Origin: Oligoflexales bacterium
Lineage (GTDB): Bacteria > Bdellovibrionota_B > Oligoflexia > Oligoflexales > RGVZ01
Direction of reading: 5' to 3'
Assembly (NCBI GenBank): GCA_947494335.1
Contig: CANLUT010000003.1
Coordinates: forward strand, 323,381-387,380
DNA length: 64,000 nucleotides
Positions 6,266 to 51,782 of the stretch are shown here, one piece after another; positions within the stretch are counted from its first letter, which is position 1; each line of letters opens with the position of its first letter. A program made the translations under genes and the position numbers. The notes below the pieces were generated by a model. The model did no database searches. It saw only the letters and a program-made list of their open reading frames with translations, and had not been told where the DNA came from.

Positions 6266-6757
6266 TTAGCGACGCATGTTTATGAATTGGAGGGGAAACT
6301 TGAGTTCCTTGCCGCGCAGCATCGCCATGACCGCCTGCAATTCGTCAATGCTCTTACTTGTTACTCGAAGCTGATCACCCTGAATTTCCGAAGTGACTTT
6401 AAGCTTAGAGTCTTTGAGTAGTTTTGTGATTTCTTTCATCTCCTCTTTTTCCATAGCTGCTTTTAAATCGACGAATTGACGCAGCATGTTGCCAGAGGCA
6501 GATTCTTCGGGGTTAAACTTAAGGCCACGCAGGTCTATGTCCCGCTTAGCCATTTTCTGTTGCATCACCTGGTGGATTGCCCTCAATTTCATATCATCGT
6601 CGGCCATGATTTTTATCTTCTTGGCTGTCTTATCGAGTTCAATAGACGATTTGCCACCACGAAAATCAAAGCGTTGCTCGATCTCTTTGGCGGTCTGATT
6701 GATGGCGTTTTCTACCTCCATGATGTCCAGTTCACTAACGATGTCAAAGGATGGCAT
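6266..6757 (-). CDS. yajQ: YajQ-family nucleotide-binding protein
   Basis: 163 aa. Starts MPSFDIVSELDIMEVENA and carries the family segments EIEQRFDFRGGKSSIEL and KFPLQFINMR at the C-terminus. YajQ proteins are small cytosolic two-domain proteins that bind RNA or nucleotides, and some bind cyclic di-GMP. AGGGAGTT precedes the ATG. It is first in the yajQ-ychF-lipoprotein run. Confidence 0.95.
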   Translation of the reverse strand: MPSFDIVSELDIMEVENAINQTAKEIEQRFDFRGGKSSIELDKTAKKIKIMADDDMKLRAIHQVMQQKMAKRDIDLRGLKFNPEESASGNMLRQFVDLKAAMEKEEMKEITKLLKDSKLKVTSEIQGDQLRVTSKSIDELQAVMAMLRGKELKFPLQFINMRR

Positions 6758-6854
6758 GTTTAACTCCCTCTGATTGGGTTAGAGCTAAAAGAAAGCTCCT
6801 GATATTTGTGACAAATTGTTGCGGTCCCAATGGTCATTCCCGTACACTGGAAGC

Positions 6855-7979
6855 ATGGTAAACGCAATCAAAAGATCAACATATTCAGCCCCCATCGGCT
6901 ATCTCTTTTTGGCGTCTTTCTTGGCCTTGCAGGCAATTCCAGTGGGTGCCCAGCCGGCCCTTGCTCCAATTCCAGTCAAGGATCAACAAAAGTCCAACCA
7001 AAGCTATCAGGATTGCGTCAAATCAGCAGCTGCTGCAGTAAAAAGTGGCAAGCTAAAGACCCAGGAATTATCTGCGGCTGTGGCTAAATGCGGAGACAAG
7101 TTCCCGGCGGCGGCGCTTTTCAATGATTGTAAACGAAACGTCCTTAAAAATGCCAAAGGCAAAGATTTATCGGCCCTGGACTTCTCGGAGTGCAAGAGGT
7201 TGCAGGCCGCAGTCGAGTTTAATCCTCAGGCCGCGGTCCCCGTTTTTGTGGCTCAGGGTAGCGCCTTTTTTGCTGGCCTGGGTTTAAACAGAGACTTACC
7301 AATGAATGAACTCAAGCCGCCAAACTTCACCTGTGAAAGGTTTTTAGCGGCTGCTCAGGATATTCCAAACAAGGCACAGCACATCCTTTTTGGGAATAAC
7401 GCCAGGGTTTTTGCCGCTGGACCGGACCAAGCGAAGTTTCTGCAGGCTCTTAAAGCAAAGGCGGGTAAGCCCTCAAAAGGTCAAAAATTTAATGATATTG
7501 TTGGTTTTGGTCGAGTCTTCGGTGATCCTTTGACGGATCCCTCGATGGTTTATTTCCCGTCTGCATCGTGTGACTTTCGCGGGGTCACGGGACAGATACT
7601 TTCGGGCCTCAGCGTCTACTATCTGCCTGATAATGAGGCAAAGATGGCGACCCCTTATTTTGGGATTGCTTATTACAAGCAAAACCAAAAAACAGTGAAA
7701 ACTCCAGAGCTGGTCGCTGAGCTCTCCGCAAAGCTCGGCCCAGAATTCAAGGCTTATAGTAAGGATACGACCACCATTTTCATCTCGGCGGTCCCCTTTC
7801 AGGAGGTGGATCGTGAGCGAGATCCCCGCAATATCTGTAAAGTTCCGCGGCAGCACCAGTTTGTGGCTGTCATTCGGACCCTAGCTACTAATACCAATGC
7901 CCCTGAGTATTTATTGCTGGCAAATGTCCGTAATATGTGCGATTACGGTGATCGGCTGGCCCGCAAAATGGGTCGCTAA
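6855..7979 (+). CDS. Exported protein of unknown function upstream of rpsU
   Basis: 374 aa from ATG 6855. The reading frame is open from a TTG at 6816, but the ATG gives a clean Sec signal peptide (basic MVNAIKRS, hydrophobic core, cleavage near PVGAQ). The ribosome site is weak, so the start is not settled. The mature region holds several cysteines (KCGDKF, DCKRN, SECKR, TCERF) spaced for disulfides, so it is probably periplasmic or secreted. No known domain is recognised. Its stop is only 27 nt from rpsU, and no terminator lies between, so transcription may read through. Confidence 0.75.
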   Translation: MVNAIKRSTYSAPIGYLFLASFLALQAIPVGAQPALAPIPVKDQQKSNQSYQDCVKSAAAAVKSGKLKTQELSAAVAKCGDKFPAAALFNDCKRNVLKNAKGKDLSALDFSECKRLQAAVEFNPQAAVPVFVAQGSAFFAGLGLNRDLPMNELKPPNFTCERFLAAAQDIPNKAQHILFGNNARVFAAGPDQAKFLQALKAKAGKPSKGQKFNDIVGFGRVFGDPLTDPSMVYFPSASCDFRGVTGQILSGLSVYYLPDNEAKMATPYFGIAYYKQNQKTVKTPELVAELSAKLGPEFKAYSKDTTTIFISAVPFQEVDRERDPRNICKVPRQHQFVAVIRTLATNTNAPEYLLLANVRNMCDYGDRLARKMGR

Positions 7980-8006: not shown

Positions 8007-8198
8007 ATGCCAGGTATTCGTCTCCGTGAAGGAGAGGCCTTTGAAGGAGCGCTTCGTCGCTTCAAGAAGCAGTGTGAAAAGGGTGGCGTTCTTAGCGATG
8101 TTCGCAAGCGTGAACATTATGAAAAGCCCTCAGTTCGCCTCAAGAAGAAATCTGTAGCAGCTCGTAAGCGTGCAGCTAAGAAAAACCGCAAATTCTAA
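8007..8198 (+). CDS. rpsU: 30S ribosomal protein S21
   Basis: 63 aa, [20 protein letters not shown] start, rich in Lys/Arg with a basic tail. S21 sits on the 30S platform and aids initiation. GCAGGTGA at 7993-8000 is the ribosome site. It heads the classical rpsU-dnaG-rpoD order and is followed by an intrinsic terminator, as in enterobacteria. Confidence 0.95.
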
Positions 8199-8251
8199 GC
8201 CATTGAAATGGCTCGAATTGGCGTGAGTCAAACTATGAAAAGTTTAGGAAT

Positions 8252-8287
8252 CCCGCTGTCAGTCAGTGACAGCGGGTTCTTTTTTGT
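8252..8287 (+). terminator. Intrinsic terminator between rpsU and dnaG
   Basis: Perfect 10-bp stem (8252-8261 with 8267-8276), 5-nt loop, followed by TTCTTTTTT. It should make most transcripts end after rpsU, so that S21 is made in excess of primase. Confidence 0.9.
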
Positions 8288-8341
8288 GCTTTATTTCTCG
8301 CACGAGTAATTCCGCAGCTCACTTATTCAAGGTATCGGCGC

Positions 8342-10198
8342 ATGGCATCGTCTCTTGACGACGTAAAACAAAGAATCAAAGCGCGAGTTCCGCTCGATCA
8401 GCTGATCGGCGAAACGGTCACGTTGGTGCGCCGGGGTACAAGCGTGACAGCTTGCTGCCCATTCCACGCGGAAAAAAGTCCAAGTTTCCATGTGTATCCC
8501 GATCAGCATTACTATTGTTTTGGGTGCAAGGAAACCGGCGATGCCATCACATTTGTGAGAAAAACCCGGGAGATGTCCTTCATTGATTCTCTCAAGTATC
8601 TTGCGAGTAAATACGGAATCGAAGCGCCTGAATTAGAAGAATCAGACTTTCTTAAACGACGACGTGGCGAGCAGGCTGTCTTGGCCCAGATGTTGGCGGC
8701 AGCGCAAGATTTTTTCAGATCGGAGCTGAAGACTGCGCGCGGGGCGGAAGCAAAAGCCTATCTTTTGTCACGTGGATTTACTGAGGAAACGATCGAGGAG
8801 TTTGGCTTTGGCCTGACACCTGCAGAAGGCTTTGGTCTGGTGAAACACCTGCGTGCACTTGGTTTTCGCGAAGATGACATGATTCGTGCAAGTCTCGCCG
8901 TAGTAAGCACGAAAACCGGACGTCCCTATGATTTCTTTCGCGATCGTATCATGATTCCGATCAAGGACGTTCAAGGACGCGTTATTGCTTTCGGCGGACG
9001 CACCATGGTGAATGATCCAGCGAAGTACAAAAATAGCGGCAGTACGCCACTTTTTGATAAATCAGCAGTTTTGTTTGGCCTGGATCAGGCAAGAGACGCC
9101 ATCAAAGACAAACGTCAGGCGATCATCGTTGAGGGCTACATGGATACCCTATGCCTTTGGCAAGAGGGTTTTCGGCATGTTGTTGCGTCGATGGGCACGG
9201 CCTTGACAGTGCGACAATTGAAATTACTTTTCCAAAATACAAAGGTGTCTGATGTGATCATCCTGTTTGATGGTGACTCGCCAGGACAGAAAGCAACTTT
9301 GGATGCCGTGGATGTCGTGCTCGAAGTGCCAGAGTTAAACGTTAAAGCTGCTAAGCTCTCCGGTGGAGATGATCCCGACACTTTCGTGCGCAATAAGGGC
9401 AGCGATGCTCTTGGGGTGGTCATTGGTCATGCGGTGGATCTCATCGATGCGTCGATCGGCGCCAAGCTTGTCGGGATTTCACCGGCTGCAATTCCGAGTG
9501 TTGTAACCCGGGACTTTGTTCCATGGCTCTCGAGAGTCGAAGATCCCATTAAACGCGGTTATCTGGTTAACCGAATATTTGGTCTCACTGGGGTTCCTGC
9601 GGAAGCGATTCATCGTCAGCTGAGGTCTTTTACCCTGACGCCCACTCATGGCGCACGACAGATGGTGACGCCTCCCGTTGGTTCAGTGTCCGATTCCGCG
9701 GCTGGGGGCGATCGTCTCAAAGTATTGCCAACCAGGGCTTTGACCCCAATCGAGAAAGGCTTTTTGGGGAACCTTTACTTTGCGACATCTGGGGACATTG
9801 ATCCAGGCGTGGTCGGAGGCTTTGTATCGAAGGAGCTTATGCTTGAGCCTCTGTGGGAGCAATTTGCGCGACAAGTGATCCAATGTCACGTTGAGGGCGT
9901 CGCACCGCGGGAAAATCCCGCCTTGTTGGCGGCCTACTCACCGGAAGAGGCGCAAATTCTGGCTGCAATTACGGACCTTTCCCCTGATACTTTTGCCACT
10001 GAAGATCGTCGCCGCTCTTTGGAAAAGTTAATTCTTGAGCAAAAGAGAGCCAACATCCAGCAATCCATTGCGCTGCTCAAAAGGCAGGTTCAGGTTGCAT
10101 CAAGTCAGTCGCCGCAGGATGTGCCCGGGTTTTTAGCCGAGGTTATGGCGCTTACGCAAAGCTTGTCCGCCTTGGAGCGGTCCCTGAGTGGTCAGTAA
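8342..10198 (+). CDS. dnaG: DNA primase
   Basis: 618 aa. N-terminal CHC2 zinc finger with ligands Cys39, His42, Cys59 and Cys62 (CPFHAEKSPSF...YYCFGC). The catalytic TOPRIM domain follows (AIIVEGYMDTL about residue 260; ILFDGDSPGQKAT about residue 308). The C-terminal part is the helicase-binding region and is less conserved. It makes RNA primers for replication. The gene lies 143 nt after rpsU behind a terminator and 223 nt before rpoD. AAGGT about 9 nt upstream supports the ATG. Confidence 0.95.
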   Translation: MASSLDDVKQRIKARVPLDQLIGETVTLVRRGTSVTACCPFHAEKSPSFHVYPDQHYYCFGCKETGDAITFVRKTREMSFIDSLKYLASKYGIEAPELEESDFLKRRRGEQAVLAQMLAAAQDFFRSELKTARGAEAKAYLLSRGFTEETIEEFGFGLTPAEGFGLVKHLRALGFREDDMIRASLAVVSTKTGRPYDFFRDRIMIPIKDVQGRVIAFGGRTMVNDPAKYKNSGSTPLFDKSAVLFGLDQARDAIKDKRQAIIVEGYMDTLCLWQEGFRHVVASMGTALTVRQLKLLFQNTKVSDVIILFDGDSPGQKATLDAVDVVLEVPELNVKAAKLSGGDDPDTFVRNKGSDALGVVIGHAVDLIDASIGAKLVGISPAAIPSVVTRDFVPWLSRVEDPIKRGYLVNRIFGLTGVPAEAIHRQLRSFTLTPTHGARQMVTPPVGSVSDSAAGGDRLKVLPTRALTPIEKGFLGNLYFATSGDIDPGVVGGFVSKELMLEPLWEQFARQVIQCHVEGVAPRENPALLAAYSPEEAQILAAITDLSPDTFATEDRRRSLEKLILEQKRANIQQSIALLKRQVQVASSQSPQDVPGFLAEVMALTQSLSALERSLSGQ

Positions 10199-10220
10199 TT
10201 TTGGCAGGTTGATGGGTCTT

Positions 10221-10280
10221 TTGGGCGATGTTGCCCAAGTAGGCACAAATCTTGCAAACCCTTGAGCCGCTTGGGTTTTT
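10221..10280 (+). other. Two short hairpins in the dnaG-rpoD gap
   Basis: TTGGGC (10221-10226) pairs with GCCCAA (10233-10238). AAACCC (10256-10261) pairs with GGGTTT (10273-10278) and is followed by two more T residues. Either could attenuate transcription between dnaG and rpoD. The stems are only 6 bp, so this is a weak call. Confidence 0.35.
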
Positions 10281-10421
10281 GTTGCAACTCTTGGGCTTTC
10301 TGGATAGTATCGAGCGCTTATCTCTCTAACGCCAGCAGGCGCTTAACCGCAGCCGGTCGTTTTTGTTGATCGCGCACTTTCTCGTAATGGTTTTAAAATT
10401 TTTTATTTTTTGAGGCAATCC

Positions 10422-12764
10422 ATGGCTAAGACCAAGGCAAAATCTAACGCAAAATCAAAAAGCCCAACTCCCAAGGGAGCGGCAAAACTTGCGAAGAAAC
10501 CCGCAGCGAAAGCTGCCGTCAAAGGCTTGGCCCTCAAGTCTACTAAGTCAAGACCAAAACCAGCCACGGTGATGGCAGCATCAAAAAAACCAGCAGCGAA
10601 AAAAGTTGCTCCGAAGTCTGCTCCGAAGCCAGCCAAGAAAGTTGCTGCACCAGCGAAAGCGGTTGCTAAAAAACCTGTGGCACCGAAGGCCGTTGCTGCT
10701 AAATCTCCGCAGAAACCTGTGGCTGCGAAAGCAAATGCGAAAACAGCGGCAAAACCAGTATCAAAGCCGCTCGTTAAAACTCCCGTGAAGCAAGAAGCTC
10801 CTGCTGTTGTTTCGACGAAGGCAGCTGCACCAGTTGTTGAACAACCGCGTCGTGGTCGCCCACCAAAGGCTGCAAATGGTGTGGATACAAAACCACAAAC
10901 TGCTGAGGTGAAGGTTCCGGGACGCAGAGGTCGTCCCCCGAAAAATCCCTTGCTCGACATTCCCGGTGTCACCGGTGCAAAGTCCGGCGGTTTGGAGTTA
11001 CACAAAATTATCGAAGGATTGGTTAAGCAATTTAAAAAAGCTGGAACAGTGGCATTCAAAGATATTGAAGCCGCGTTTCCCAAGGGCGCAATCAATCAAG
11101 ACCTTTTGGACGACGTTATCGTCTCATTGCAAGACCGTGGTATCGAAATCGCAGACCGTCGCGGTGCTGCTGGGCTTCGCAAAGGAGCTAGTGGCGAAGA
11201 GGAGATGATCGGCGGTATCGATGAAGACGGTGATCTTGGTGGAGACACAGAAGCCGGTGATGCTGAAGGTGAGGAGGGAGCAGAGGCTCCAGCCGAGTTT
11301 GATGCATCTGATGCGGCAATTGGTAAGTCTAACGACCCAGTAAGAATTTACCTGCGCAAGATGGGTGCGGTCGCTTTGCTTTCTCGCGAAGGCGAGGTTG
11401 TTATCGCCAAGAAGATCGAAAATGAAGAAAACAGAATTCTTGAGCGCGTACTGGGCTTCCAAATCGGTATGGATGCGATCATCGGTACTGCGAAAGCTTT
11501 CGTTGCAAATGAAGTGCGCATGAAGGCTTTCATCAAGGGCTTTGACGATGACGAAGCTAGCAACAATGAGCAGGAACACTTTGAAAAGGTTCGTCTTCAG
11601 ACCGTTGAGTTTTTGAAGATTCATGATGAGTTCGAAGCGGTTGCCAAGAAAGCTGCCAACAATCCCAAATTGGTAGCTAAAGTTGATGGTGTACGTGAAC
11701 GAATTTTCAACGGATTAAAAGAACTTAACATTAACCGTAAGCTTTTAGCTGGCGTTATCAACCAGATGGCGCAATTTGCCAATGCTGCACGAGAAGCTCG
11801 TCAGGACATGGAATATTATGCCCGCCGTCTTCAGACCAACATTGAAGACTTGGGTAAGTACATCGGCTCTGGCAACACGAAGCCTTACGGCTCTGCCGGA
11901 GACCGTGAGTGGTTGCGCATTGTTCGTAACTTCCAGGCAGCACAAGATACGATTCAGCGAGTGCAGCAACAGACTGCAATGACCCTGGATGATCTCGCGT
12001 CTGCTCACAAAGATTTGGCGATCATGCACCAGGCTGCAGAAAACGCTAAGCGTGAGCTGGTGGAGGCAAACCTTCGCCTGGTTGTTTCGATCGCTAAGAA
12101 ATATACCAACCGCGGTTTGCAGTTCCTTGACCTGATCCAGGAAGGCAACATCGGTTTGATGAAGGCCGTAGAAAAGTTCGAGTATCGTCGTGGATACAAG
12201 TTCTCAACTTACGCCACATGGTGGATTCGTCAGGCCATCACGCGTGCTATCGCTGATCAAGCGCGTACGATCCGTATCCCTGTGCACATGATTGAAACAA
12301 TCAACAAGATGATTCGTACAAGCCGCTTCCTTGTTCAGGAAATGGGTCGTGAACCGACACCTGAAGAAATCGCGGCACGGATGGATCTATCTGTCGACAA
12401 GGTGCGTAAGGTTCTCAAAATTGCGGTTGAGCCTATCTCGCTTGAAACACCGATCGGCGAGGAGGAAGATAACCATATTGGAGACTTCCTCGAGGATAAA
12501 TCGCAGGCAAGCCCAAGCGAAAGCGTTATGACGGGAAGTCTTTCCGAGCAGACGCGTAAGGCATTGGCTACTTTGACGCCACGTGAAGAAAAAGTTCTGC
12601 GTATGCGTTTTGGTATTGCCGAACGCAGCGATCATACCCTAGAAGAAGTAGGTCAGAATTTTGATGTTACGCGCGAGCGTATCCGTCAGATCGAGGCGAA
12701 GGCTCTTAGGAAACTTCGTCACCCAAGCCGCAGTAAGAAGCTGCGCGCATTTATTGAGGGCTGA
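10422..12764 (+). CDS. rpoD: Primary sigma factor RpoD with basic AT-hook-like N-terminus
   Basis: 780 aa from ATG 10422, chosen for GAGG at 10412-10415. Residues 1 to about 175 are Lys/Ala/Pro-rich like histone H1 tails and contain two AT-hook-like cores, RRGRPPK at about 143-149 and 168-174. Region 1.1 follows (about 190-245), then an acidic Asp/Glu-Gly stretch, region 1.2 ([12 protein letters not shown]), region 2 ([17 protein letters not shown]), region 3 and region 4.2 ([18 protein letters not shown]). The sigma core is complete, so this is the housekeeping sigma factor. It is last in rpsU-dnaG-rpoD. The tail is written with many repeated GCN/AAR codons, as expected from low-complexity expansion. 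Confidence 0.95.
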
Positions 12765-47907: not shown

Positions 47908-49425
47908 ATGCTTAATTCCTATGCATTGCTTTTTGTTGATTGTCAGTCCACGGGGGCAAGCCCTCAAACAAGCTCATTGCTGGAGCTTGCCGTCAATGGG
48001 CAGTCCTGGGTTTTACGTCAGGACGAGGCAGTTAGTCCCAAAATACTGCGTCTAATTGGCATATCGTCCGAGGAGATCGCAATCGGCAAGTCGGCTGACG
48101 AGGTGTTCGCTGACTTTACACAGTTGATCGACGATGCACGGGAAGGTTTTGGCGAGAAGATTTTTGCGGTCGCTCATTTTGCCAGGCTCGAGCAGTCTTA
48201 TTTGGACCGCCTTTGGCAAAATTTTGCCCAAACAAATTTTCCACTACCTTTGATTTGTACACACAAGTTGGCAAAAATACTTCACCCGCGTCTTCCCAAC
48301 TATGGGCTAAGAGCACTTGGTGGTTGGTTTGGCAAACCTTTAGACGATGGTAAACGTGCCGCCCATCACGTTGACGCTACGCGTTGCATTTGGAATGCGC
48401 TCTCAGTCGAACTTGATCGGCGGGGCATCGGAACACTGGATGATCTAATAAAATTCATGGAGCAGAAGCCAGCTCGCGCCAGTGGTCGTCGCGAGTTTTT
48501 GATTACTCGCGAGAGGCGTTTGGGGCTTCCCTCTGATCCAGGTGTTTATCGTTATCTGGATCGTAATGGAAAAATCCTTTATGTGGGTAAGGCTACATCG
48601 CTAAAATCACGTGTTAACAGTTACTTCACCGGTGGATGTCGTGGAGATCATCGTAAACTTGAAATGCTGGCGCAGGCAGTCGAGGTTGAGGTCACCACCA
48701 CTGAAGCTCCTCTCTTTGCGGGTCTCCTGGAATATGACGAGATTCGTAGGTTAAAGCCAACTTACAATATCGCCTTCAAGGGCCGTGGGCGCGATCACTT
48801 GCAGGCTCTGCAGATCCTTATGGTTCCTCCGACTCAGATTGTCATGTTTGAATATGCAAATATCATGAAGGAGTATTTTTATGATCTTGAGGATCAAAAT
48901 ATTCTCGTGGATGGATTAAAGTTGTGGCGTCACAAAAGAGGTGTATCGGTAGAGGATACGCTATCAGAGAGAGGCCTCCTAAATCTTGGAATGCCCCTTC
49001 TAAAAAACTGGATTGCTGAAGAACGACAAAGACGAAATTGTCGTGAGATAGACGTGGACGATGCCACGGATTCAGAGGAAGAAGACATTGACGGCGTCGA
49101 TGACGAAGATAATTTTGTATGGACTGCTGAAGTTGTGGTAGCCGTTTGTGAGAGAATCGTCAGACGGGCGACACGGAATTATATCCGGTCCAAATGGTTG
49201 CGCCGGATTGCTGGAGCGACAATACAATTGAAATTTACAGCAGGACGGAAACAGAAACATAACACTGCAGATCGAGAGGCCACGATTTTTCCGTCAGAAC
49301 GATATCCTGAGGTAGATCTTCGTCGGGTTGGCGTGTTGGTGCACGAGCTTCGTCGTATGGAATCCAAAGGCGACAAGTGGCAGATTATCAGTCCGTGGCC
49401 CATGACGATTCCCTTTTGGATTTAG
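47908..49425 (+). CDS. DnaQ-like exonuclease fold fused to GIY-YIG nuclease
   Basis: 505 aa. N-terminal DnaQ/PolC-like domain (1-170). Its motif I reads DCQ (residues 11-13) instead of the required DxE, and motif II (AHFARLEQ) and III (HHVDA) are also altered, so this domain may be inactive. Residues about 207-290 are a UvrC-type GIY-YIG with Tyr214, Tyr225, Gly227, Arg235, Glu275 and Asn287 in place, so it should cut. An acidic stretch follows (about 383-403), then an unassigned C-terminus. The next gene starts 8 nt on and encodes a nuclease-helicase. Confidence 0.85.
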   Translation: MLNSYALLFVDCQSTGASPQTSSLLELAVNGQSWVLRQDEAVSPKILRLIGISSEEIAIGKSADEVFADFTQLIDDAREGFGEKIFAVAHFARLEQSYLDRLWQNFAQTNFPLPLICTHKLAKILHPRLPNYGLRALGGWFGKPLDDGKRAAHHVDATRCIWNALSVELDRRGIGTLDDLIKFMEQKPARASGRREFLITRERRLGLPSDPGVYRYLDRNGKILYVGKATSLKSRVNSYFTGGCRGDHRKLEMLAQAVEVEVTTTEAPLFAGLLEYDEIRRLKPTYNIAFKGRGRDHLQALQILMVPPTQIVMFEYANIMKEYFYDLEDQNILVDGLKLWRHKRGVSVEDTLSERGLLNLGMPLLKNWIAEERQRRNCREIDVDDATDSEEEDIDGVDDEDNFVWTAEVVVAVCERIVRRATRNYIRSKWLRRIAGATIQLKFTAGRKQKHNTADREATIFPSERYPEVDLRRVGVLVHELRRMESKGDKWQIISPWPMTIPFWI

Positions 49426-49433
49426 GTGAGATC

Positions 49434-51782
49434 GTGGCAAAGCTCAAGATTGCAGTGACAGATTTCGCGCAAAAAAATCAGTTGTCTGGTGATATTGATG
49501 AATCACAGGCTACAGGTCAGGTTTCTCCAGAATTGGGAATGGAGATTCACCGTGAGATTCAGGATCGCCGCGCGTCCGAGTTTTTGGACTACCAACGTGA
49601 ACATCAAGTCAAAGGCTGTCTCACAACATCCAGGGATCTAGAGATTGATCTATCCGGACGCATAGACGGCATGTGGTCAGAGGGAGACTCTCTCCTTGTT
49701 GAGGATGTTAAAAGTACGCTTAATCTACGTAAGCTCCGGCGAAATCTTTTGGAGGATCCGGAGCATGATTATATCTTGCAGGTTAAAACCTATGGTTGGC
49801 TGCTTTGGAAACAGCGCGGCATCGTGCCAAGACTTAGACTTTTACTCGTGTCCGCAGGGAGCCGCGAGGAAGAAGTCTTTCCCGTGGAGTTTGACCCGGA
49901 AAAATTTTCTGAATGGGTAGAGCTGCGCCAAGAGTTTTTGGAAAAACTATGGGTCGAGGTTCGTCAATTCAAGATGCGGCGCAAAGAGATGGTAAAAGAT
50001 CTGAAATTTCCCTTTGCGCGTAAACGCTCAGGTCAGTCTGAATTAATCAAAGAGGTTGAATCGGCATGTAAATCAAAGTTACAACTCATTATTCAGGCTC
50101 CGACCGGAATGGGTAAGACTGCGGGCGTTCTTTTCCCGTTGTTGAAGTCAGGTCTGCGACGTGGTGATAAAGTGTTTTACGTAACTCCTAAGAATAGCCA
50201 GCTACGTGAGGCCGAATCCTTCATGAAATCAGTCGCGGTTGATGGCGAAAGGCCATTGGGCTTGATCATGACGTCCAAGCCCAAAATTTGCGTGAATACA
50301 GAAGTTAGCTGCACGCCCGAGGCATGTCCGTTCGCAAAGGGGCACTATGACAAAGTCAATGAGCATAAGTTAATTGGCGCGTTGAGGCAGGAGCCCATCA
50401 TTACGGGTGACGTGCTTCGAGATTACGCTGCTCGCTATGAAGTTTGTCCATACGAACTAAGTAAGCAACTGATGCCGTGGGTCGATCTTATTGCAGGTGA
50501 CTATCACTATGCGCTGTCGCCACAAGCAAACTTGCGTGAGATCGCTAAGCTGCCTCTTGTTACTGATCCAAAGCCTTTGCTTGCAATTGATGAAGCGCAC
50601 AATCTCGCGGAGCGATCTCTTGACTGGTACAGTCATGAAGCGACTCACATTGCGGAAGCGGTCCTGGCCATCAGCCCTAAAAAACTTCGAAGACGTATGC
50701 AGATTCTCAATGAGTGGTTAGACACATGCTTGTCGGGAGCCCCCGCTGGATCAGTGGTCAAGCGGTTTGATCGAAAAGCTCTTATTGACAACGTGAATCT
50801 TTGGTCTGCCGAAATGCCAGCGGTTTTGGAGGCGGCGCAAGATGACGATGCTTACAGGCCTCTCGTCGAAACCTGGTTTAGCTGGATGAATTTAAGAGAT
50901 CTGTGTCAGCTTCCGGATGAGCTTTTTTTTGCTACGAAGAGTCGGGACGGCTGTGGTTTAAACATGCATTGTGTCAACGCCGGGCCGCTGATGCGTGAGA
51001 GTCTGGCCAAATACCAAACTTTAGTAGCATTTTCGGCAACTATGAAGCCATTTTCCTATCATCAGACGATGGCTGGGTTCTGTGAAGAACGAGCGGTCAA
51101 CAAAGAGTTTGTCTCGCCTTTTCCGAGAGAGCATCGAAAGATCATAGCGATTCCGCAAATTTCGACAGCATGGCGTGACCGACCGAGAAGTTTGAACAGA
51201 ATCGCTGAGGTTATTGAGAGGGTGATTTCAATGAAACGCGGAAATTATATCGCGTTTTTCCCGAGTTTTGAGCTTCTCAGACAGGCGTTGTCATTGGTCA
51301 CGGCGGATGGATTTGAAGTCGTCGAGCAGCCTGTGGGTGCAACAATGAGCTGGGTGCAGGATGTTTTGCGTAAGCTGCGCAAACGTCGCAATGTGTTGCT
51401 TTTTGCGGTTCAAGGTGGAGTATTGTCTGAAGGAATCGATTTACCAGGTGAGCAGTTGATTGGCGCTTTCATTGTAGGACCGGCGTTGTCCATGATCACA
51501 ACTGAACGCGAAGAGCGTAGGAAGCTTTTAAGTAAGGATGGAGCTGATGGATACGCATTGACGTATGGATACCCTGCGATGGCTAAGAGTATTCAGTCAG
51601 CAGGACGCGTCATTAGGTCCTCCAAAGACCGGGGACTGATCATCTTGATGGACCCCCGATTCCTAAAGCCGCCATACTCCGACGCCATACCAGCCGACTG
51701 GATTGGCGAGGGCGAGTCGACCGAAGCACTGATAAGTCATTCAATTTTATCGGATATAGCAAGCTTTTGGTCAGAGTCCTAA
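49434..51782 (+). CDS. RecB-family nuclease fused to XPD/DinG-type Fe-S helicase
   Basis: 782 aa from GTG 49434 (AGGTGAG just upstream, 8 nt after the previous stop; the frame opens at 49377 but that start has no good ribosome site). The N-terminal PD-(D/E)XK domain has His39, Asp78 in GRIDG, Asp91 and Lys93 in EDVK, and the RecB-type QxxxY (Gln116, Tyr120). Then an XPD-type helicase: Walker A APTGMGKT (about 225), four FeS cysteines (KICV, VSCT, EACPF, EVCPYEL), DEAH box AIDEAHN, and motif VI QSAGRVIR. A 5'-3' Fe-S helicase plus nuclease is expected. Partner of the gene before it. Confidence 0.9.
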   Translation: MAKLKIAVTDFAQKNQLSGDIDESQATGQVSPELGMEIHREIQDRRASEFLDYQREHQVKGCLTTSRDLEIDLSGRIDGMWSEGDSLLVEDVKSTLNLRKLRRNLLEDPEHDYILQVKTYGWLLWKQRGIVPRLRLLLVSAGSREEEVFPVEFDPEKFSEWVELRQEFLEKLWVEVRQFKMRRKEMVKDLKFPFARKRSGQSELIKEVESACKSKLQLIIQAPTGMGKTAGVLFPLLKSGLRRGDKVFYVTPKNSQLREAESFMKSVAVDGERPLGLIMTSKPKICVNTEVSCTPEACPFAKGHYDKVNEHKLIGALRQEPIITGDVLRDYAARYEVCPYELSKQLMPWVDLIAGDYHYALSPQANLREIAKLPLVTDPKPLLAIDEAHNLAERSLDWYSHEATHIAEAVLAISPKKLRRRMQILNEWLDTCLSGAPAGSVVKRFDRKALIDNVNLWSAEMPAVLEAAQDDDAYRPLVETWFSWMNLRDLCQLPDELFFATKSRDGCGLNMHCVNAGPLMRESLAKYQTLVAFSATMKPFSYHQTMAGFCEERAVNKEFVSPFPREHRKIIAIPQISTAWRDRPRSLNRIAEVIERVISMKRGNYIAFFPSFELLRQALSLVTADGFEVVEQPVGATMSWVQDVLRKLRKRRNVLLFAVQGGVLSEGIDLPGEQLIGAFIVGPALSMITTEREERRKLLSKDGADGYALTYGYPAMAKSIQSAGRVIRSSKDRGLIILMDPRFLKPPYSDAIPADWIGEGESTEALISHSILSDIASFWSES

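Follow-up and report, generated by a model that had tools for sequence, protein, structure and literature searches.

We analysed a 64,000-nucleotide stretch of the genome of an Oligoflexales bacterium (the whole stretch is hereafter called the window) and found that two adjacent genes in it, gene 1 and gene 2, probably encode an undescribed bacterial DNA-repair pair. Gene 1 fuses a DnaQ-like fold to a UvrC-type GIY-YIG nuclease, and gene 2, judged by its architecture and residues, appears to be a member of the EndoDinG type of nuclease-helicases. We put the probability that the two proteins work as an accessory, UvrA/UvrB-independent DNA-damage repair complex at roughly 0.58. This reading is supported by the co-occurrence of the genes, their adjacency, the one-way dependence of gene 1 on gene 2, the pattern of intact and lost active sites, and the repair context of the pair on three plasmids.

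The partnership of gene 1 and gene 2 is real. The 80 gene 2 loci that a contig scan returned were spread over many phyla, and in nine of them gene 1 was directly beside gene 2. We also surveyed 543 genomes in three sets, where adjacency was read off the gene coordinates in the survey tables. Gene 1 was present in 71 genomes, gene 2 was also there in 68 of these 71, and the two genes were adjacent in 58 of the 68. Among 58 genomes of the window's phylum, 17 had gene 1, 17 had gene 2 and 14 had both (adjacent in 6/14). The corresponding numbers for Bdellovibrionota, the phylum of Bdellovibrio UBA4095 (291 genomes), were 32, 66 and 32, with adjacency in 30 of the last 32. The third survey covered the class of an Obscuribacterales genome, taken as Vampirovibrionia (194 genomes), where gene 1 was found in 22 genomes, gene 2 in 26 plus one contig-end case, and both in 22, always adjacent (22/22). 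G507 was at first scored as having gene 1 without gene 2, and its contig was found to stop inside gene 2. Fisher tests of co-occurrence, which ignore shared ancestry, gave 4e-8, 2e-24 and 1e-24 for the three surveys, respectively, and 3.5e-5 at the genus level in the window's phylum.

The pair was carried by Bdellovibrionota and a sister phylum, by Vampirovibrionia, by a single WOR-3 contig and by three plasmids of Legionella. The usual order was gene 2 followed by gene 1, either overlapping or separated by a short gap; the reverse order was observed in the window and in G004, G014, G018, G031, G158 and G173. Conserved adjacency had been proposed as a check in an earlier note on this DNA, and it was seen in the 58 genomes mentioned above and on the Legionella plasmids; homologues were not rarely adjacent, nor was the helicase always found alone. 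Gene 2 without gene 1 was common (34 of 66 Bdellovibrionota genomes, and also Bacillota). As gene 2 often stands alone, it is gene 1 that depends on gene 2, and not vice versa. The genes were unlinked in 10 of the 68 co-occurring genomes. The trees of the two genes were congruent (r = 0.85, 0 of 1000 permutations; 9 of the 56 pairs compared are unlinked). In both trees the window's pair clustered with the unlinked G006/G007 pair. Part of this congruence could come from a shared species tree.

The features of the pair are as follows.
47908..49425, + strand: gene 1, pseudo-DEDD / GIY-YIG protein of 505 amino acids; 53-74 orthologues compared
47908..48462, + strand: DnaQ/RNase T-fold domain of gene 1, about residues 1-185, with degenerate DEDD positions (D11, Q13, E95, H154)
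48517..48780, + strand: GIY-YIG domain of gene 1, about residues 204-291, UvrC N-terminal type, intact
48781..49422, + strand: C-terminal domain of gene 1, residues 292-505, no match to a solved structure
49424..49429, + strand: Shine-Dalgarno-like AGGTGA, overlapping the gene 1 stop and upstream of GTG 49434
49434..51782, + strand: gene 2, predicted EndoDinG-type nuclease-helicase of 782 amino acids, GTG start
49434..50003, + strand: PD-(D/E)XK (RecB/Cas4-like) nuclease domain of gene 2 (H39, E56, D78, D91, K93, Q116, Y120)
50007..51779, + strand: XPD/Rad3-DinG superfamily 2 helicase of gene 2 (Walker A K228, DEAH 386-389, SAT 534-536, Q721-R725-R728)
50289..50447, + strand: iron-sulphur (Fe-S) cluster cysteines of gene 2 (C286, C293, C298, C338)

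The coordinates, the order and the 8-nucleotide gap of the two genes given in the earlier note were borne out, with the TAG stop of gene 1 at 49423-49425 and the GTG of gene 2 at 49434. The position of AGGTGA over the gene 1 stop suggests translational coupling of gene 2. An in-frame GTG at 49377 is another possible start of gene 2; alignments of the homologues begin at 49434.

The pattern of active sites in gene 1 is one-sided. Residues 10-294 match the NCBIfam family NF005906 of DnaQ-GIY-YIG fusions (3.9e-39). The GIY-YIG part was recognized by Pfam (3.4e-5) and by UvrC 1yd6 (4.7e-13), while the N-terminus stayed below the Pfam cut-off for DnaQ/RNase T (0.0035). The AlphaFold model (mean predicted local distance difference test score, pLDDT, of 76, and about 90 across most of residues 1-290) shows a DnaQ/RNase T fold together with the UvrC N-terminal GIY-YIG fold (root-mean-square deviation of 1.2 to UvrC). 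All the 53 distinct orthologues have intact GIY-YIG residues; in the window these are Y214, Y225, G227, K228, R235, E275 and N287. At the first two DEDD positions all 53 orthologues carry D and Q; the third is E in 49 and K in 4, and the fourth is H in 45, Q in 7 and Y in 1. An active site is expected to have E in place of Q13, D in place of E95 and D in place of H154. As the DEDD site is lost in all 53 orthologues, a working DnaQ exonuclease is very unlikely. The fusion and the intact GIY-YIG nuclease that had been noticed earlier therefore stand, as do the three nuclease folds of the pair, whereas only two of these folds have intact active sites, the DnaQ-like one being degenerate. A mirror image of gene 1 was seen in five paralogous DnaQ-GIY-YIG proteins (L056, L058, L059, L060 and L066) from relatives of the window genome: D-E-D-D is intact and the GIY-YIG residues are eroded. 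Three of these five were scanned against Pfam and gave a strong RNase_T match and none for GIY-YIG.

The C-terminal part of gene 1 does not follow UvrC or Cho. No match to a UvrC model extends past residue 342, and the best one stops at residue 291; beyond this point no conserved cysteine cluster of the C4 type of UvrC/Cho was present among 74 gene 1 sequences. Neither a UvrB-binding (UvrBb) domain nor a Cho C-terminal domain was found in gene 1 using UvrC models, hhalign and a fold search, and only 27 columns of the gene 1 profile matched in hhalign against 24 UvrC proteins. The C-terminal domain of the family, modelled by AlphaFold from the L104 orthologue (predicted template modelling score of 0.80), found nothing better than E = 1.1 in a Foldseek search of the PDB. 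The lack of both the C4 and the UvrB-interacting parts is consistent with a partner different from UvrB, and residues 292-505 are a candidate partner-binding region.

Gene 2 had been described in the earlier note as a PD-(D/E)XK nuclease fused to a four-cysteine Fe-S XPD/DinG helicase, and our data agree with this. Pfam matches were Helicase_C_2 (1e-32), DEAD_2 (1.9e-11) and PDDEXK_1 (7.8e-4), and the protein is homologous from end to end to the solved chain 9kqh_A (3.2e-91). H39, E56, D78 and K93 of the nuclease are invariant among 140 homologues, and the cysteines C286, C293, C298 and C338, the Walker A lysine, DEAH and the Q-R-R of motif VI are kept in 140/140. The sole variation among the checked residues is in the window itself, where position 91 (49704-49706) is Asp and the other 139 of the 140 homologues have Glu. 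The only strong PADLOC match of gene 2 was typeIV_DinG (4.4e-93), and gene 1 matched generic DEDDh; csf families of type IV CRISPR were absent from the 25 of 34 neighbour families that were listed, CRISPR arrays not having been searched. Some other loci deserve mention. In the congener G004 (L031, 8032-10510) gene 2 is split into two overlapping frames, by a frameshift or an assembly error. An EndoDinG-type nuclease-helicase is present on a contig of a Heimdallarchaeota metagenome-assembled genome (L129), where real transfer and contamination are both possible. In Faecalibacterium/Gemmiger (L125, L141, L143 and L145), a UdgX-like uracil-DNA glycosylase homologue is located ~1.5 kb upstream of a distant Bacillota EndoDinG.

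We compared the pair with known systems. EndoDinG was named in 2025 as one subgroup among the DinG-like helicases (Cheng 2025, PMC11981726; Bdellovibrio bacteriovorus HD100), and its endonuclease rather than exonuclease activity is given there as unpublished data. Like gene 2, it has an N-terminal PD-(D/E)XK nuclease (H, E, D, E/D, K) followed by a four-cysteine Fe-S XPD-type helicase, and a full-length relative has been solved (PDB 9kqh). That review does not mention a GIY-YIG/UvrC-like partner, and gene 2 of the window differs in having D for E at the (D/E)XK motif. Gene 1 shares with the Cho+Exo and Cho-like+Exo proteins (PMC1564403; PRK07883 / NF005906) a DnaQ fold followed by a UvrC-type GIY-YIG domain. 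Unlike them, it has no C4 cluster, UvrBb or Cho C-terminal domain and carries another C-terminal domain instead; its own DEDD site is lost in all orthologues, and it co-occurs almost obligatorily with EndoDinG. As the C4 cluster, the UvrBb/Cho C-terminus and an intact DEDD site are all missing, we did not file gene 1 under Cho+Exo in spite of its first 291 residues. ExoDinG, the Staphylococcus aureus DinG (8zef), also combines a DnaQ fold with an XPD-family helicase, but in a single chain with an active exonuclease; here gene 2 starts with PD-(D/E)XK and not DnaQ, and the DnaQ fold is on a separate, degenerate protein that is nearer to Cho+Exo. The suggestion in the earlier note that the pieces of Staphylococcus DinG are spread over two genes, with extra nucleases joined on, was not upheld, as the N-terminus of gene 1 matches DnaQ-GIY-YIG fusions at 3.9e-39 versus 2.3e-5 for the DnaQ of DinG. 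A split-DinG origin was rejected: gene 2 appears to be of the separate EndoDinG type (PMC11981726), and the DnaQ domain is predicted to be catalytically degenerate. In concept the pair would most resemble MrfAB, a helicase and exonuclease that repair mitomycin C damage without UvrABC (PMC11194089). Both have a helicase, a nuclease and a DnaQ fold, and UvrABC-independent repair is the shared idea; MrfAB, however, uses an active DEDDh exonuclease and not GIY-YIG and PD-(D/E)XK endonucleases; the likeness is one of analogy. In the openly accessible literature we came across no paper on the pair, an absence that is weak evidence. The parts are of known kinds, and the partnership, the family with a degenerate DnaQ fold and an active GIY-YIG domain, and the repair-island context appear to be new.

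The repair context comes from the neighbouring genes. On the Legionella plasmids L304, L305 and L306, two of which were typed as conjugative, gene 2 and gene 1 overlap by 8 nucleotides. umuD, umuC, dinB and an SOS-response-associated peptidase gene surround the pair on all three, in complete or recognisable and sometimes broken form; these islands also carry Ku (two), LigD (one) and a UdgX-family protein (one). dinB is directly upstream of gene 2 on a Desulfuromonadaceae contig. In 8 of 13 Bdellovibrionota loci (L308-L320; in L312 at 6553-7629), gene 2 is directly preceded, at a distance of 0-18 nucleotides, by a radical SAM gene of the PA0069 family, which, judged by this spacing, is part of a predicted three-gene operon with gene 2 and gene 1. 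We take the PA0069 family to be one usually grouped with SplB-like DNA photoproduct lyases. The remaining neighbours are mixed metabolic genes.

In the mechanism that we propose, EndoDinG would load onto single-stranded DNA, translocate 5' to 3' and open the duplex beside a lesion or a branched intermediate. Gene 1 would bind both EndoDinG and the exposed strand, where its dead DnaQ fold may serve as a clamp on the single strand or the 3' end. The UvrC-type GIY-YIG domain would nick the DNA, the PD-(D/E)XK domain of gene 2 would make the other cut or trim a flap, and repair or translesion polymerases would fill the resulting gap. In effect, this would be an excision system with an XPD-like helicase standing in for UvrAB. 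The physical complex, the substrate, the cut positions and the order of these events are what we infer. A further excision-repair pathway besides UvrABC and MrfAB is put forward tentatively: an Fe-S XPD-like helicase-nuclease would replace UvrA/UvrB and recruit a UvrC-like GIY-YIG nuclease through the dead exonuclease fold and the C-terminal domain of gene 1, joining a repair-type helicase of eukaryotes and archaea with a bacterial-type incision nuclease.

Several observations weigh against the repair complex. Most neighbours in Bdellovibrionota and Vampirovibrionia are not repair genes, which leaves the three related plasmids as the main source of the repair context. Exact matching to the known LexA boxes that were tried found none upstream of the pair except a cyano-type box at L030, and no shared upstream dyad rose above the control in the Bdellovibrionota or Legionella sets. 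Gene 1 occurs without gene 2 in three genomes (G008, G025 and G030), and at L036 of G018 (8150-11073) gene 1 is intact while gene 2 lacks its N-terminal half and is cut down to its C-terminal third. The Fisher values, as stated above, take no account of ancestry. Just upstream of the reduced pair of G018 there is a 56-amino-acid N-terminal fragment of dinB; the G018 locus is a decaying or rearranged copy of the pair.

Other explanations of the pair were weighed along with the repair complex. It may process branched DNA in recombination or fork restart, with the GIY-YIG domain acting like SLX1, and with flaps and reversed forks handled by EndoDinG in the way of Dna2 or EXO5. DinG/XPD helicases work on forks and D-loops, which favours this explanation. 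So do the structural relatives of the EndoDinG nuclease, namely RecE, EXO5, Cas4, AddA and Dna2 (PMC11981726), and the Ku, LigD and translesion polymerase genes of the Legionella islands would suit the repair of breaks or forks no less than excision. However, the GIY-YIG domain of gene 1 is of the UvrC/Cho type (deviation of 1.2 to UvrC), and sequence searches name UvrC/Cho and not SLX1; we regard a primary role on branched DNA as doubtful. That the two genes act independently, their adjacency arising from chance or shared regulation only, is highly improbable and already disfavoured. It would accommodate the frequent gene 2 without gene 1 and the 10 unlinked cases, but gene 1 is almost never without gene 2, several phyla as well as plasmids have the two side by side, in one order or the other, and the tree congruence extends to the unlinked pairs.

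Anti-phage or anti-plasmid defence, in which a nuclease-helicase would sense or degrade foreign DNA much as Hachiman (HamAB) does, is an unlikely explanation. It draws on the patchy distribution within genera (2/6 genomes in each of two genera; in the window's genus the other 4/6 have neither gene), on the different genomic position in G004, where the contig with the pair is not the one with the homologue of the acyl-CoA dehydrogenase that flanks the pair in the window, on the plasmid carriage and on the nuclease and helicase make-up. Damage-sensing nuclease-helicase defence complexes exist, and HamAB is likewise a two-component nuclease-helicase (PMC12278908). Against this, PADLOC applied to 101 neighbour proteins at 36 loci gave scattered single matches and no recurring defence family, its only strong match to gene 2 was typeIV_DinG and that to gene 1 a generic DEDDh, with no HamA/HamB match for either protein, and the plasmid neighbours are repair genes. 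The pair was not found in INPHARED or IMG/VR, where no true gene 1 homologue turned up and the only matches were distant Bacillota-type gene 2 and UvrC/Cho-like fragments; a phage origin was rejected on this ground. Of the two roles offered in the earlier note, repair gained support from the Legionella islands, whereas the anti-foreign-DNA role gained none from the neighbourhoods.

EndoDinG was named without a known partner or role, and a dedicated partner across phyla gives it a testable function. A handle on EndoDinG should be easy to obtain, because members of the Bdellovibrio phylum commonly carry the pair, some of them with genomes assembled into one large contig. The mirror-image decay of the paralogous DnaQ-GIY-YIG proteins opens the question of what part a dead exonuclease fold plays in the work of an active endonuclease. 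If incision of damaged DNA without UvrAB proves true, the pair would constitute a separate bacterial route of excision repair, parallel to the eukaryotic logic of XPD plus endonuclease.

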